A stretch of 64,000 bases of DNA from Methanofollis formosanus (GTDB taxonomy: Archaea > Halobacteriota > Methanomicrobia > Methanomicrobiales > Methanofollaceae), in NCBI RefSeq assembly GCF_019633745.1, contig NZ_CP037968.1, forward strand, positions 1,122,789-1,186,788, in the 5' to 3' direction. Made by a program: the position numbers and the translations under genes. This document shows, in pieces, positions 2 through 6,646 of this stretch. The notes below the pieces were generated by a model. The model saw nothing but the letters and a program-made list of their open reading frames with translations. It did not search any database and was not told the origin of the DNA. Each line of letters begins with the position of its first letter. Position 1 is the first letter of the stretch.

Positions 2-745
2 GTCGGCCCGACGACCCCTCTCACTCAGCGCGGCACCCGCCTCATCTGCTGGTGGATGCTCATTTTTCTTGCCCTCGTCCCGGCAGGAGCGGTCGGGCTG
101 CAGGTCGGCGTGGAGGGGGATCTGCCCGGCGAAGTCGCCGAAGGGGAAGAAGTAAACTTCACGCTCACCCTCGCCGGCCTCCCGCCTGCGGCCGACGACC
201 TGGTCCTCGAGACCGATCTCGTCCCTGAGGACGGCACGCCGCTCTTCTCGGTTGAAGGAACAGAGACCGTCTCCAACAGCACCCCCTTCATCGTCCCCCT
301 CCCCGCGGGGAACGGGCCGCTGAAGATCGCCGTCACCGGCCAGGCCCCCAGGGCCGCGGATGTGCGGCAGTGCGGGGCGGTCACCCTCACCACCTATGAC
401 CCCAGGCTGAGCGGCTATGCCTACTACCGGGTAAGGTTCACCGACGACGAAGGCAACCGCCTGGCCGAGAGCGACACACGAGTCTTTGCTCTGAAGGTCG
501 AGGCCATCGAGGAGTTCAACGAGAAACTGGGAGGGATCTCGGACCCCTTCATGGACGCCTACCTCCAAGACCTCTTCGACAAAGGGCTTGTCGGGGAGGC
601 GAACGCCCTTGCCGATCACGAACTCGCGAAAGAATCGACGGTCCCGACCCTCTGGGCGGTCGCGGGCATCGTCCTCGCCGCAGTCCTGGCCCTGGTCATC
701 GGGATCAGGATCGGCGGACGAGAATATGAGGTGAGCGAAGAATGA
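2..745 (+). CDS. Single-pass surface protein of the tubulin-like operon, 5' partial
   Basis: The reading frame is open to the window edge, so the N-terminus may lie outside; the first internal Met is at base 56. A hydrophobic stretch (ICWWMLIFLALVPAGAVGL) looks like a signal sequence. An extracellular beta-rich region of about 180 residues with an N-glycosylation sequon follows, then a C-terminal membrane helix (about 25 residues) and a short acidic tail. I recognise no named domain. The stop overlaps the start of the tubulin-like gene by an ATGA, so the two are probably translationally coupled. By context it may be an outward-facing partner of the membrane-associated cytoskeletal system downstream. 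Confidence 0.7.
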   Translation, partial: VGPTTPLTQRGTRLICWWMLIFLALVPAGAVGLQVGVEGDLPGEVAEGEEVNFTLTLAGLPPAADDLVLETDLVPEDGTPLFSVEGTETVSNSTPFIVPLPAGNGPLKIAVTGQAPRAADVRQCGAVTLTTYDPRLSGYAYYRVRFTDDEGNRLAESDTRVFALKVEAIEEFNEKLGGISDPFMDAYLQDLFDKGLVGEANALADHELAKESTVPTLWAVAGIVLAAVLALVIGIRIGGREYEVSEE

Positions 746-3700
746 AGCGTGAGAGAGAGACGGGGACCGCCCTCCAGCTCCCGATCGACCTGACCCTCTG
801 CGGTCTTGGCGGGTGCGGGAAAAAACTGGTCGGCGAGATCTGCAGACAGGAATGGTTCCTGGACTATTACTCCAGGACAGGCCGGCACCTGAGCATCTAT
901 ACGATGGACACCGACGCCAACGAGCGGTTCCAGGACGAAGCCATGCGGGAGAGGGTGCTTGGGATCGTCGACTCGCTGGGCGGCCGGGGCAACATCGAGT
1001 ACGACACCCTGTACCTCCCGAACCTCGCAAACATCAGCCAGGTCTCCGACCTCGCCGGCCTGGACATCGCCGAGAAGATCAAAGGGAGCAAGTCCGAACC
1101 CGGCACCGCGGTCTGGTGGCTGAACGATCCTTCGGAAGACGGCCTGCACTTCGACGAACTCAGGACCATCGACCCCTTCGTCACCGACGACTTCGGCGGC
1201 GGGGTGCACCGGCGGCGGGCGATCTCCAAGGCGATCCTGTATAAGGTGATCAACGAGGGACAGGCGGGCGGGTTTCCCATGTTCTCGACGATGGGCACGA
1301 CAGTGCTTGTCGTCGGACTCGGCGGGGGAACCGGTTCGGGGATGTTCATCGACCTCGCCCGGTATATCAGGGGACAACGGGGCGAGACCGCCCAGATATG
1401 GCTGTATATCGTCCTCCCGACCACCATGGAAGGCGAGAAGGAACAGCTCAACGCCGCCGTCGCCCTGACCGAACTGGAATATCTCAACCAGAACGAACGC
1501 CTCTTCAACTACATCGTCCTCACGCCACTCGGCCCGACCGGCTACAAGAAGGGCGAGGAGGCACGGGAGGAGGTGCACGAGTTCGACGCCGTCTTCCCGT
1601 ACATCTTCACCAACTTCCTCCACCTCGAGAAGGGCGACATCAACATCGGAGACGCCAAGAAGCCGTACGCCTCGTTCATCATCGCCGACGCCCATGTCAT
1701 CTCCTATCCGGTCGAGGAGTTGCGGCGCTTCAAGGAGGAGTACGAGGTGGTCGTCGAAGAACTGGAGGAGATCACCGCCAGCAGGAAACACCTCAACCAG
1801 GCGGTCGGCGACCTCCTGGACGAGGCCGGCCTGACCGCGGTGCTCCCGCCGACCAGAAGCGACTTCGACTATATCAAAAAGGAGTTCGGGACCATCGAGA
1901 AGGTCTGGAGGAACGAGATCGGCAGGTTGCTCGACTACCAGACCGGCAGCGCCGTCGAGTTCTTCATCGAGAACAATGTGCCGCCTGAACTCCGTCCCGA
2001 CATGGTCAGGACCTACGACGACCTCGTCGCCTTTCTCGCCAGGGTCAGGACCTTCGCCCAGGCGGTGAAAGAGGACGAACTCAAGGACGACCTCGACCGA
2101 AAAATCTTCCGGAGTCTCCCTGAGTCGTTCCATGCCCTTGAGACCACGGCCAGACTTTTCAGGCGGGTCGCCGCCATCGACGACGAGGCGATGCACGCCG
2201 CCCTGATGGAGACCCTGAAAGGGCGCGAGGAGATGGCGCCGTTCGTGAGGGAGGTGGACGGCAGACGAAAAGATGTCCTGGACGAGGCCCATCTCCTCGA
2301 AACGGCCCTGGCGGAGAAGAAGGGCGACCTCGACCGGATGGAGGCGCGGAGAGAGGAGATCGACCGTACCGTCGAGCACACCCTCTCTGACGTCGACATC
2401 ATGCTCGACCAGTTCGTCACCCTGAAAGAGAAGATCAGGGTGATCGAGGGGCCGGAGAAGGGGTTGCAGGAGTCGATCAACAGGAGCGTCGAGGCCCTCC
2501 AGAAGAAGAAGGTCAGGGCCGTGGACAAAGAGGGATGGCTCAGGGCCGCGGGGGTCGCCGAGGTCCAGCGGGAGATCGCGGCGTTGTCCCATGAGAGCGG
2601 CGAACGGCTCGACGACCTGGCCGACCTCGTCGAGGCGATCGCCCTCTACCACTATTACGCGATGCGGGTGGCACAGATCGACGCCGGCGGCATCGGCACC
2701 AGAATCGTCGGGTTCATCAACAAAAAACCGGCACGAGAACGGAAAAAATTCGAGGCGCTGAGACGAGAGAAGGAGGAGTTCATCAAGGCGAATGCGAAAT
2801 ACTGGAACCTCGAGATCGATCCTTCCTTTGAACTCAGGTTCCCTCATGACTTCATCGTCGCCGGTCTGCAGCGGCGGGCCGAGGAACTGCGGAGAAAGAT
2901 CACCGAGACCCTCTTCGCCCAACTCCCGCTCGACGACCCGGAGGGGGTTGCGGCCCTCTTCGAGGCCGGCGAGCGCGGGACGATCAGGGCGGCCCTCAGG
3001 GACCGCCTCACCGCAGCGGCCCTCAGACAGGAGGGGTTCACCGAGCGGTACGCCGCATACGAAGCGGAGTACTCGGAACTCAGCAGACAGACCCGGGAGA
3101 AGCAGGAGATGGTCCGCGCCCTCGAGGAGACCGAAGAGGTGGCCGACCGCACCTTCCCGCATAGGCGGGAGATCAACCGGCATTACCGGACCTTCTCGGA
3201 TACCATCGTCAGGATCAACGAGGAGAAGGCCTACGGGAAACACACCCGGAAAGGTCTCTATATGACAAACTTCGGGGACATCAACCCCAGGATCCTCTCG
3301 CTCATCCATGAAGACTCCTCATTGTGGGACCTGGACTGGGAAGACAACGGCCGCAAAGAACTGGACAAACTGGTGGCCGAGATCACCGGGACCTACAAAC
3401 ATCTCATCGACAACTACAAACTCGGCATCCACAACCTGATGGTCCCGATCAGCGCGACCGAACGGTGGAACTTCGGGAAGGTCGGTCTGATCGTCGCTTC
3501 GCCCTCGGACTACATCGCACGGACCATCGCGAGCGCCCGGGTGGGGGACCTGATGACCCGCGAGGTCAACGAGACCCTTGCCCTCAGGAACATCAACGAC
3601 TCCCGTCTGGTCACGCACCACCACACCCGGCCCTGGGAGATCGCCCTCACCTTCGTCGCCTCCGCCTCGTTCCTGGACAATGTCTCGCCACTCATCGCCG

Positions 3701-3915
3701 GAGGCGGATACTGGGAGATCTACGAGAAGAACCGGGACAACATCCTTCACCATGTCCTCCTGATGCACGAAGGCAAATATATCACCAGAGAACGTCTTCT
3801 CGACCTGAAAGATGCCGGAAAACTCTCGAACCTGGAGAAAAAAGGGAACAATATCTCTGATGCGGTCCTGGATCTCTACACGATCAAGGGGATCCGGGAG
3901 GCACTGCCCAGATGA
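742..3915 (+). CDS. Large tubulin/FtsZ-like GTPase (Tubulin_2 / FtsZl family)
   Basis: The 1057-residue protein has an N-terminal tubulin-like fold. A T1-like loop CGLGGCGKKLV lies at about residues 20-30, a T2-like DTDAN at about 56-60, and the tubulin signature GGGTGSG at 194-200, followed by a helix and strand as in FtsZ T4. About 300 residues of GTPase domain are followed by a long charged helical region with heptads (about 430-700), likely coiled coil, and a C-terminal globular part. It is far longer than FtsZ (about 380) or CetZ. An FtsZ-type T7 NxDxx(D/E) loop was not found by eye, so hydrolysis on polymerisation is uncertain. It overlaps both neighbours by ATGA. Role in membrane remodelling is inferred from the FtsZl family and its membrane GTPase neighbour. 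Confidence 0.85.
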   Translation: MKRERETGTALQLPIDLTLCGLGGCGKKLVGEICRQEWFLDYYSRTGRHLSIYTMDTDANERFQDEAMRERVLGIVDSLGGRGNIEYDTLYLPNLANISQVSDLAGLDIAEKIKGSKSEPGTAVWWLNDPSEDGLHFDELRTIDPFVTDDFGGGVHRRRAISKAILYKVINEGQAGGFPMFSTMGTTVLVVGLGGGTGSGMFIDLARYIRGQRGETAQIWLYIVLPTTMEGEKEQLNAAVALTELEYLNQNERLFNYIVLTPLGPTGYKKGEEAREEVHEFDAVFPYIFTNFLHLEKGDINIGDAKKPYASFIIADAHVISYPVEELRRFKEEYEVVVEELEEITASRKHLNQAVGDLLDEAGLTAVLPPTRSDFDYIKKEFGTIEKVWRNEIGRLLDYQTGSAVEFFIENNVPPELRPDMVRTYDDLVAFLARVRTFAQAVKEDELKDDLDRKIFRSLPESFHALETTARLFRRVAAIDDEAMHAALMETLKGREEMAPFVREVDGRRKDVLDEAHLLETALAEKKGDLDRMEARREEIDRTVEHTLSDVDIMLDQFVTLKEKIRVIEGPEKGLQESINRSVEALQKKKVRAVDKEGWLRAAGVAEVQREIAALSHESGERLDDLADLVEAIALYHYYAMRVAQIDAGGIGTRIVGFINKKPARERKKFEALRREKEEFIKANAKYWNLEIDPSFELRFPHDFIVAGLQRRAEELRRKITETLFAQLPLDDPEGVAALFEAGERGTIRAALRDRLTAAALRQEGFTERYAAYEAEYSELSRQTREKQEMVRALEETEEVADRTFPHRREINRHYRTFSDTIVRINEEKAYGKHTRKGLYMTNFGDINPRILSLIHEDSSLWDLDWEDNGRKELDKLVAEITGTYKHLIDNYKLGIHNLMVPISATERWNFGKVGLIVASPSDYIARTIASARVGDLMTREVNETLALRNINDSRLVTHHHTRPWEIALTFVASASFLDNVSPLIAGGGYWEIYEKNRDNILHHVLLMHEGKYITRERLLDLKDAGKLSNLEKKGNNISDAVLDLYTIKGIREALPR

Positions 3916-5324
3916 GAGTGCACAACCGGGAATGGCTGATGAGGGAGGGGGGTGTCGTGGTGCTGGTCCTCGCCCTCTCGGTGCTGCTGCTCCGGACCGC
4001 ACCGGAGGTGATTACCGGGCCGATACCTTCGTGGTCAGGGGTGCCGGCCGCGTTCTGTCTGGGCTTTCTGGTCCCCGGCGCACTGGCTCTGCTGCTGGAA
4101 GAGCGGACGAGGCCGGGCGGGGCGACGCTGCTCGCCCTCACCGTACCTCTCTTCTCTTTCTCTTTTCTTCACTCACCCGCACCGGCGTCCGTCGCCCTCC
4201 TCGCCGGCCTGGGCACCGGAGCAGCCGTGGCCATCGGTACCTTCTGGAAGAACCGTGCCGACATCCTTTCATGGACCGCCCGTTTCGTCGTCAAACTCTT
4301 CTCGGTCACCCTGGCGGTCGTCATCATCCTCCTGCTCGTCTCCGCACCCGTCCTCTCCCTGGGGGGCGGGTTGGCCGTTCTCCTCGCCCTCACGCTCCTT
4401 GTCCTCTGGAGCGTCCGCCGGGTTCGGAGGACAGAGACATTCATCCTGGGCCCTAAAGGGTCTGGAAAGACTCTCCTGCTCCTCGCGATGTACAGTCATC
4501 TCGTCAGGGAGTTCTCAGGGCAGAGAGAGGAGGTGATCTTCGCGGGGGACGAGGAGCAGATGCGGATCGAACACCTCCTCTCCGACCTGGAGGACGGAAC
4601 CCTCCCACCTCCGACAGAGGAGACCGGCCTTGCGGTCTATCGACTTTCAGGGCGGAGGTTCCAGGTCGCGCCGGTCAGGACCGCCTTCATCGACTATGCC
4701 GGGAAGTACGCGGCCCCGCTCTCCAGGGCGGCATATGCCGACGCCCTGAAGAGGATCGCCGCCGCAGTCGGGGCCGAACCGCGCCGGGTCGAGGCGAAGA
4801 TCAGGAGGTTCGAGTACCTGCAACACCTCAAAGAAGACCACGCTGCTGTGGTCGCCGGGGAGATGGACGCCCTCGTCCCGGTTTGCGTCCACCGGCACCT
4901 TGAAACGGCCGGGAAGGTGCTCTTCCTCATCGACGGCGATCATATCGTGGGTTTTCATCAGGACGGGCGGAGGGCGCTGACCCATCTCTTCGGGCAGTAC
5001 TCGCGGGTGATGGAGGCCCTGGGTGACGATCGGGTCTACGGTTTTGTCGTCACCAAGACCGACAGGATCCGGGACCTTGCAGAGGTCGACGACGCATCCG
5101 AAGGGGCCGAGCGGATCGAACGCGAGATCTACCAGCAGCTTATCCAGATCAGCACTTTCAACGAGATCCATAACCGCGCCCTCTCGGTCCCGGTCTATTT
5201 CCTTGCGGTCAGCACTGATGCAACGCTCAGGCCGGCCGGGGCCGGAGAAGGCAACGGTCGGGAAGAGGTGCTCAGGCAACTCTATCCCTGGAGGATCGGC
5301 GAACTGGCGAGGTTCGGGTTCTGA
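3912..5324 (+). CDS. Polytopic membrane P-loop GTPase, partner of the tubulin-like protein
   Basis: The 470-residue protein has about six hydrophobic helices in residues 10-170, then a soluble P-loop domain. Walker A is GPKGSGKT (180-187), a G3-like FIDYAG has its Asp at 261, and a G4-like TKTD lies at 381-384, consistent with a TRAFAC-type GTPase rather than an ABC ATPase. Its ATG overlaps the tubulin-like gene's stop by 4 bases. A distinct GTPase adjacent to the tubulin-like gene is part of the gene neighbourhood described for the FtsZl family. The function is inferred: coupling nucleotide state to a membrane-bound tubulin-like polymer. Start codon and frame are well supported by the overlap. 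Confidence 0.8.
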   Translation: MRVHNREWLMREGGVVVLVLALSVLLLRTAPEVITGPIPSWSGVPAAFCLGFLVPGALALLLEERTRPGGATLLALTVPLFSFSFLHSPAPASVALLAGLGTGAAVAIGTFWKNRADILSWTARFVVKLFSVTLAVVIILLLVSAPVLSLGGGLAVLLALTLLVLWSVRRVRRTETFILGPKGSGKTLLLLAMYSHLVREFSGQREEVIFAGDEEQMRIEHLLSDLEDGTLPPPTEETGLAVYRLSGRRFQVAPVRTAFIDYAGKYAAPLSRAAYADALKRIAAAVGAEPRRVEAKIRRFEYLQHLKEDHAAVVAGEMDALVPVCVHRHLETAGKVLFLIDGDHIVGFHQDGRRALTHLFGQYSRVMEALGDDRVYGFVVTKTDRIRDLAEVDDASEGAERIEREIYQQLIQISTFNEIHNRALSVPVYFLAVSTDATLRPAGAGEGNGREEVLRQLYPWRIGELARFGF

Positions 5325-5355
5325 AGCGTTCGTCTGGGAAGGGGGGAGAAAGAAG

Positions 5356-5904
5356 ATGGGAGAGAGGGTCGAGAATGTTGTCGTCCTCCTCGTCGGGGTG
5401 ATCCTTCTCATCGGCGCCCTTGCAACGACACAGCCCTTCCCTCCCTTCACCCCCGGGGAGAACGGAGAGGTGACGACCCCGGCGCCCACCCCCGAGAGCA
5501 CCGATACGCCGGACACGACCAGAGAGATCTTTCGCTACGCCTCTGCGGAGTACGAGAACCAGACCTTCACCGTGCCGGTGAACGTGACGGCACCGCCGCT
5601 GACGGTCAGGTACACGGTCACCCCACGGTTGATCACGGAGGGCCCGGACCGTGTCCCCTCCCCTGAATCCTGGTTCGTGGTCAGGATCGTCGACGAGGAG
5701 GGCACCGTCGTCAGGGAAGACGGATACGGCACACCCGCCGGTGAAAAAGGAGGGTATAGCCGGAACGAGAAAGGAACGCTCGAGGTCTTTGCCACAGGAA
5801 CCTACACCGTCGAGGTGAGGTTCAACGAGATGATCGCCGAGGTCGTCGTCGGGACCGCGGGGCCTCCTCTCATGTTGCCATCCCAAGGATCTCCTTCAGC
5901 CTGA
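5356..5904 (+). CDS. Single-pass secreted/anchored protein, fourth gene of the tubulin-like operon
   Basis: The ATG at 5356 follows an AG-rich ribosome-binding stretch (GGGGGGAGAAAG). The 182-residue product has an N-terminal hydrophobic helix (VVVLLVGVILLIGAL), a Thr/Pro-rich linker typical of glycosylated archaeal surface proteins, and a beta-sandwich-like ectodomain. A longer frame opens at 5023 but runs inside the GTPase gene and was not used. No family recognised. It lies 31 bases after the GTPase stop on the same strand, so it probably belongs to the same transcript. Its last 35 bases overlap the convergent receiver-PAS gene. Confidence 0.72.
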   Translation: MGERVENVVVLLVGVILLIGALATTQPFPPFTPGENGEVTTPAPTPESTDTPDTTREIFRYASAEYENQTFTVPVNVTAPPLTVRYTVTPRLITEGPDRVPSPESWFVVRIVDEEGTVVREDGYGTPAGEKGGYSRNEKGTLEVFATGTYTVEVRFNEMIAEVVVGTAGPPLMLPSQGSPSA

Positions 5905-6646
5905 CCAGGTGCCCGACCTCGTTCCCGTCCCGGTCGGCGATGAGGTCCACCCAGAGTCTCGCGGTCCTGTTCCTCCCGTCCCGTGCGTTGACCCGGACCA
6001 CCGAGGGCCGGTCGAGGAGGGCAGCGGCATGGATATCGTTGAGAAGCGTCATCCTGCCGAACCTGACCGGCGGGGACGACCGCCCTTTCATCACCAGCAC
6101 GGCAGGCAGGGGTCTGAGAAAGGCCTCCTCATATCCCCACCCGGTGAGGCGGCAGGCAAACCAGTTCATGAAGATGATCCCGCCGTCCTTGCCGGTGAGG
6201 AGATAGGCGTCGTCGCGGGCCATCATCGAGAGGAAGGCGGTGCGCTTCTCCTCGTGATCAGGGTTGTCCAGCAGGAAGGTGTGGTACGCGTCTTCGATCG
6301 CAGCGCCGAAGGACGCTTCCGTGGAGGGCCAGACGACATACCCGATGGGCTCCGCTTTCCTGGCCCGTCCCAGGGGGTCGAGACCGGCGTGTGTCGCCAG
6401 GAAGACCACCGGGGTGTGCAGGCAGTGAAAGATAAAATCTGCAGTATCGATCCCGTCGAAGGTCGTCCTGAGGTCGATGTTCATCAACACCAGGTCGGGA
6501 GCCCCTTCCACCACCTGCCTGAAGGCCCCAGCCGGAGTGGCGGCCGTCCCGGTCACGCGGTAGCCGAGGCTGAGAAGCATCTCACCGATCTGTTTAGCAA
6601 GACCGGTATCGTCGACGATCAGGACAGCGGGCTTTATTTCAGACAC
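5870..6646 (-). CDS. Receiver-PAS protein with a degenerate phosphorylation site
   Basis: The start is a GTG at 6646, immediately before SEIKPAVLIVDD, where the receiver fold begins; upstream in-frame codons run into repeat DNA. Residues about 5-125 form a CheY-like receiver of the kind common in Methanomicrobiales, and about 135-258 a PAS domain (DDAYLLTGKDGGIIFMNWFA). The acidic pair is kept, but the phospho-acceptor Asp of the usual LVLMDI is Asn here (LVLMNIDL), the Thr strand reads VFLATHA, and the conserved Lys before Pro is Trp (VVWPS). It is therefore probably not phosphorylated and may act as a pseudo-receiver. It converges on and overlaps the preceding gene by 35 bases. Confidence 0.8.
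   Translation of the reverse strand: MSEIKPAVLIVDDTGLAKQIGEMLLSLGYRVTGTAATPAGAFRQVVEGAPDLVLMNIDLRTTFDGIDTADFIFHCLHTPVVFLATHAGLDPLGRARKAEPIGYVVWPSTEASFGAAIEDAYHTFLLDNPDHEEKRTAFLSMMARDDAYLLTGKDGGIIFMNWFACRLTGWGYEEAFLRPLPAVLVMKGRSSPPVRFGRMTLLNDIHAAALLDRPSVVRVNARDGRNRTARLWVDLIADRDGNEVGHLVRLKEILGMAT

Follow-up and report, generated by a model that had tools for sequence, protein, structure and literature searches.

What does a methanogen do with a long, divergent relative of tubulin whose gene lies between those of a surface protein and a membrane GTPase, and how might such a protein be held at the membrane? The question is raised by an operon at the left end of a 64,000-nucleotide stretch (the window, G000:C1:1122789-1186788) of the complete 2.97 Mb chromosome of Methanofollis formosanus. 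Its four genes, all on the plus strand, encode in order the surface protein SURF1, an FtsZ-like-1 protein (FtsZl1), a membrane GTPase and a second surface protein, SURF2. We hypothesize, with a probability of about 0.6, that this archaeal FtsZl1 system of Methanofollis forms a membrane-bound, GTPase-regulated scaffold by which a filament or patch in the cytoplasm is linked with the cell surface, serving to shape or organise the envelope and not to divide the cell. The operon type itself is already known, because FtsZl1 operons, including those of Methanospirillum hungatei and Methanosarcina acetivorans, were described in 2010 (PMC2875224). An earlier note on this DNA had called the system undescribed in methanogens, which overlooks the methanogen operons listed there and holds for function: 'membrane remodelling' is a hypothesis from gene context, and no bench study of any FtsZl1 protein was found in the literature searched.

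The FtsZl1 protein and its operon

The junctions SURF1/FtsZl1 and FtsZl1/GTPase are both ATGA overlaps, so that the three genes are coupled, and SURF2 starts 31 bases 3' of the GTPase gene end. The earlier note had described these overlaps, the 1057-residue frame with its GLGGCGKK and GGGTGSG loops, the GTPase motifs GPKGSGKT, FIDYAG and TKTD, and the position of SURF2 correctly. It was right that the gene of a single-pass surface protein is coupled to that of FtsZl1, but this SURF1 gene begins 16 bases to the left of it (ATG at L002:19773), and the 253 amino acid protein is thus truncated by the window edge. The closest named relatives of the locus are found in Methanofollis metagenome-assembled genomes, with protein identities of 90% and 75%.

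FtsZl1 matches the Pfam family Tubulin_2 (PF13809) with an E-value of 2.7e-12 and a score of 47.1 bits, the cut-off being 27, and also has a sub-threshold match to Pfam Tubulin. All five glycines of GGGTGSG are invariant in 47/47 aligned homologues, while G23, G24, G26 and K27 of the T1 loop are kept in 45 of the 47, the remaining two being gapped there. In the same alignment, 96% conservation is seen for E230, which follows the fifth strand; we take its position to be that of the ribose-contacting glutamate of FtsZ. Profile-profile alignment using hhalign gave 96.6% against the CetZ family over 57 columns (S4-T4-H5), with controls below 1%, and 95.5% against a combined FtsZ and CetZ profile, where the relaxed alignment pairs T1, T2 and T4.

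An AlphaFold2 model of residues 1-433, based on four sequences, is weak, with a predicted local distance difference test (pLDDT) value of 49 and a predicted template modelling score (pTM) of 0.49. Its top Foldseek match in the PDB is CetZ (3zid, E 7e-4, probability 1.00), and CetZ, followed by FtsZ and TubZ, fills most of the top 50 matches; their template modelling scores are low (0.24-0.46), so this comparison backs the fold class and nothing beyond it. The full-length model, also from four sequences, reached a pLDDT of 50.5 and was uninformative in Foldseek. It contains long helices from residue 450 to 826, most of the stretch 510-790 having pLDDT values of about 75-89, and a C-terminal part of low confidence. 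The Pfam match, the profile-profile alignments and the low-confidence N-domain model support a tubulin fold for FtsZl1, the outcome expected by the earlier note from a comparison with FtsZ, CetZ and TubZ.

The domain organization resembles that of the FtsZl1 family (PMC2875224, PF13809), in which an N-terminal FtsZ-like domain with GGGTGSG is followed by a long coiled coil and a mostly helical C-terminal part, giving about 1050 amino acids. Further likenesses to FtsZl1 operons are the membrane-associated GTPase with a TxKD motif (here TKTD) and the presence of ordinary FtsZ in the same genome, which encodes two FtsZ genes and one CetZ elsewhere (PMC2875224). Archaeal GTPases of this set are membrane-associated, whereas bacterial ones are not (PMC2875224). 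With the Tubulin_2 match and the GTPase partner, the assignment to an archaeal version of the operons of Makarova and Koonin stands. Unlike those operons, the present one neither contains nor adjoins a vWA, kinase or OmpA-type gene; a vWA protein is found in the majority of FtsZl1 operons, but is not obligatory (PMC2875224). The vWA gene once suspected just upstream is not there: the neighbor is a PAP2-like protein, and each of the six VWA_2 matches of the genome lies at a distance of more than 330 kb.

Conserved and variable partners

Of 150 genomes sampled from the order, 36 contain Tubulin_2 above the cut-off, and 9 of these are among the 12 that represent the genus. SURF1 is encoded directly upstream and the GTPase directly downstream of FtsZl1 in all 27 distinct Methanomicrobiales loci (27/27), where the FtsZl1 and GTPase genes mostly overlap, and the same order is found in 11/11 Methanosarcinaceae loci. 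Gene order is thus conserved in relatives, as the idea of the earlier note required. A membrane GTPase-like neighbor is retained at nearly all of nine FtsZl1 loci that are more distant. It should be noted that the compared genomes are kin, and locus counts therefore do not represent independent events. Three genomes (G139, G142 and G076; loci L006, L007 and L008) encode shorter Tubulin_2 proteins of 723-768 amino acids, which have the top Pfam scores of the order and apparently constitute a different subfamily.

Outside Methanofollis, the operon usually continues with c3, a protein consisting of a cytoplasmic domain and one transmembrane segment without a Pfam match, and Methanomicrobiales relatives further add a PEGA-repeat protein with a C-terminal transmembrane segment. 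Methanofollis operons of the present type lack c3, and most carry SURF2, which occurs in part of the Methanofollis genomes and in a single further genome of the Methanomicrobiales. Of the two surface proteins whose ectodomains the earlier note had proposed as substitutes for bacterial OmpA-type partners, only SURF1 is a core component; SURF2, of limited spread, is accessory. Its interpretation as a remnant of c3 or of the PEGA protein found no support. These loci are set apart from the operons described in 2010 by the constant SURF1, joined by c3 and PEGA proteins in the majority of relatives and by SURF2 in M. formosanus; SURF1 and c3 may or may not correspond to the unnamed archaeal families A1/A2 of that work (PMC2875224). 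Elsewhere in the genome, c3 is absent in 11/12 genomes of the genus. It is present only at a second locus of the remaining one (G027), where an additional FtsZl1 operon, of the c3/PEGA type, is directly followed by an extra FtsZl1 paralogue with 26% identity (L056:5975-14851 and L057:6110-9361). A scan of viral contigs gave no relatives, and a viral or mobile origin was rejected.

Across 13 homologues, the membrane GTPase keeps motifs G1, G3 and G4, all located C-terminal to the transmembrane segments. Hydropathy analysis yields six segments at a relaxed threshold, in line with the six helices claimed by the earlier note, but five at a strict one. The GTPase weakly matches DO-GTPase2 (1.7e-5, 25.0 bits), as seen in 7 of 13 homologues, albeit under the Pfam cut-off of 27. 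The operon could accordingly be related to the 'biological conflict' systems of the DO-GTPase/GAP1 kind (Kaur et al. 2020) and act, in an archaeon, as a sensor of stress or infection with the tubulin assembling as effector. Some of those systems likewise bring together, in one neighborhood, a membrane GTPase, a coiled-coil tubulin and surface PEGA or beta-sandwich domains, and they also include vWA (PMC7159879); a PEGA protein is found in relatives of the operon, and the distribution of the operon is patchy. Unlike those systems (PMC7159879), it contains neither GAP1 nor zinc ribbons, c3 of its relatives gives no GAP1 match, and gene content is constant across families where effectors would vary. 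The proteins of a clear DO-GTPase2/GAP1-M locus in the same genome match neither the operon GTPase nor c3. Membership was rejected based on the missed DO-GTPase2 cut-off, the missing GAP1 adjacency and the clear locus elsewhere, and we regard the conflict role as unlikely.

The conflict-type locus (G000:C1:380159-391005; L173:1160-12006) encodes two HSP70-like proteins, the second with a VWA_2 match, a large DnaJ-like protein, a zinc-ribbon-type DO-GTPase2 (34.9 bits) and GAP1-M (38.1 bits). In this genome GAP1-M occurs only there (G000:C1:388840-389139), about 735 kb from the operon, and it was found in just one other of 197 genomes sampled. Anti-phage systems were considered with PADLOC and rejected; the matches, LmuB (0.0016) and mad8 (0.00032), are weak and resemble coiled-coil and P-loop background.

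In the PDB, the GTPase profile best matches the signal recognition particle (SRP) receptor beta, a membrane GTPase, at a non-significant E-value of 0.012. Since every partner is a membrane or exported protein, FtsZl1 might instead organise surface-protein export or a signalling complex without being a structural scaffold. No secretion-system channel, pilin or ATPase is conserved in the operon, and such a transport platform seems very improbable.

SURF1 and the protein encoded beside cetZ

The CetZ gene of M. formosanus (G000:C1:2451711-2452892) is directly followed by a gene for a surface protein with a signal peptide, an ectodomain, a helical stalk, a C-terminal transmembrane segment and the tail RRKWDELG. 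A homologue of this CetZ partner is encoded directly after cetZ in 18/20 further Methanomicrobiales loci and in 8/20 loci selected to represent other families in the phylum. WDELG forms the C-terminus of all 19 Methanomicrobiales partners (19/19), the remainder of which averages 35% identity, and among the eight wider partners five end in WDRLG, YDKLG or WDKLGR, one ends in WDELK and two are without the motif. A survey of cetZ neighborhoods reported few similarities in these orders (PMC9856176).

Comparison of SURF1 with the CetZ-partner ectodomain by hhalign gave 79-82% with a score of 42.6. The maximum among 300 column shuffles was 28.2, the reversed control scored 17.0 and 26 other local families reached at most 7.3%. 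Judged by these profiles, the two ectodomains are related, and a signal peptide and a C-terminal transmembrane segment are common to both proteins. The two loci are alike in placing a tubulin-superfamily gene beside one for a protein with signal peptide, beta-ectodomain and C-terminal transmembrane segment. They differ in that CetZ has about 390 amino acids compared with 1057 for FtsZl1, in that SURF1 lies upstream of its tubulin-type gene and the CetZ partner downstream of cetZ, and in that cetZ is not adjoined by a GTPase gene of this type. Further, the CetZ partner is longer, with its stalk and WDELG end, whereas SURF1 lacks the stalk and has an acidic or other tail.

The likeness of SURF1 to the CetZ partner suggests how tubulin relatives may be held at the membrane. 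The anchor of archaeal FtsZ is SepF (PMC8178401); for CetZ or FtsZl1, no membrane anchor is described in the literature searched, a coverage that mostly leaves out subscription papers. Tentatively, and at somewhat less than even odds, SURF1 and the CetZ partner could both be dedicated transmembrane anchors from a single family, by which FtsZl1 and CetZ are fastened to the membrane and the cell surface; each anchor would recognize its own filament via its cytoplasmic tail, and WDELG would be the CetZ-binding motif. The common anchor-like ectodomain family is apparently new, no description having been found in the literature searched. Few members of the tubulin superfamily are as divergent as the FtsZl1 proteins, and a constant SURF1-type partner makes the vague idea of membrane remodelling concrete: might archaeal non-FtsZ tubulin relatives share a transmembrane-anchor family?

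Proposed function and genomic surroundings

In the scaffold that we propose, FtsZl1 would bind GTP and assemble on the inner face of the cytoplasmic membrane, where SURF1 would hold it, with the ectodomain in the S-layer or cell-surface zone and the tail in the cytoplasm. The translationally coupled membrane GTPase may serve as the switch for assembly or membrane attachment. In this way the cell surface would be connected, under regulation, with a filament or patch in the cytoplasm, and the envelope would be shaped or organised. Division is unlikely as its role, given the two FtsZ genes and the CetZ gene of this genome and the absence of the operon from part of the genus; the argument from co-existing FtsZ was also made by Makarova and Koonin (PMC2875224).

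A more literal form of their membrane-remodelling view would make the operon a machine for membrane vesicles or budding. It draws on the pairing of tubulin-like proteins with GTPases and with proteins of the membrane (PMC2875224) and on the need for the GTPase ArvA/OapA in Haloferax vesiculation (PMC10927574). That GTPase, however, is small, single-domain and encoded in a different operon, and Haloferax CetZ knockouts left vesicle production unaltered (PMC10927574). The view rests on gene context, and a reviewer of the 2010 paper questioned remodelling and favored transport or signalling (PMC2875224). We consider a vesicle machine improbable.

Several observations weigh against the proposed scaffold. 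The operon is absent from 3/12 genomes of the genus and hence dispensable. SURF1 is recognizable in three of the nine more distant FtsZl1 loci but not in the other six, and is thus not universal. SURF1 tails vary by lineage and lack the WDELG of the CetZ partner; here the C-terminus is ...GGREYEVSEE, without a WDxLG-type tail. In FtsZ, T6, H7 and T7 are needed for filament formation and hydrolysis; in FtsZl1 they are not confidently placed, the alignment being reliable only to H5 and the N-domain model having a pLDDT of 49. The conserved acidic residues D299 and D304 sit where, at a guess, T7 might be. Makarova and Koonin could not place these parts of FtsZl1 either (PMC2875224).

Table 1 Features of the operon (positions in the window) and of the cetZ gene pair (chromosome positions)
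Feature	Position	Strand	Description or basis
SURF1, 253 aa	2..745	+	signal peptide, single beta-rich ectodomain, C-terminal transmembrane segment, short acidic cytoplasmic tail
FtsZ-like-1 protein, 1057 aa	742..3915	+	N-terminal tubulin-superfamily GTPase-type domain, long coiled coil, C-terminal domain
T1-type loop GLGGCGKK (FtsZl1)	802..825	+	homologue alignment
T4 tubulin signature loop GLGGGTGSG (FtsZl1)	1315..1341	+	homologue alignment
Predicted coiled-coil/helical region, FtsZl1 residues 431-826	2032..3219	+	full-length AlphaFold2 model
Membrane GTPase, 470 aa	3912..5324	+	5-6 N-terminal transmembrane segments, then cytoplasmic P-loop GTPase domain
GTPase G1/Walker A GPKGSGKT	4449..4472	+	conserved in aligned homologues
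GTPase G3 DYAG	4692..4703	+	D, Y, G invariant, n=13 aligned
GTPase G4 TKTD	5052..5063	+	T, K, D invariant, n=13 aligned
SURF2, 182 aa, accessory	5356..5904	+	N-terminal transmembrane anchor and ectodomain; no Pfam match
CetZ and partner surface protein	G000:C1:2451711-2454042 (L083:912-3243)		gene pair

Methanosarcina carries the same operon core, and gene deletion is routine in this genus. In M. formosanus, the PAP2-like membrane protein, named for its motifs PSGHA and SRIVLGVHYPGD, is encoded next to the left of SURF1 on the same strand. SURF1 probably heads the transcript, because a 230-base gap separates the two genes and an AT-rich, TATA-like stretch, GATATATAG, lies about 30-40 bases 5' of the SURF1 start. 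At the other end, a receiver-domain regulator is encoded on the minus strand (window 5870-6646), convergent with SURF2 and overlapping its 3' end by 35 bases, and a homologue of this regulator adjoins several Methanofollis copies of the operon. The genome further encodes a divergent tubulin-superfamily protein of 609 amino acids (G000:C1:1454687-1456516; L079:6688-8517), whose T4 loop is degenerate (GLGGTMVD) and which has a long extension at its C-terminus; matches of similar length occur in other Methanomicrobiales.

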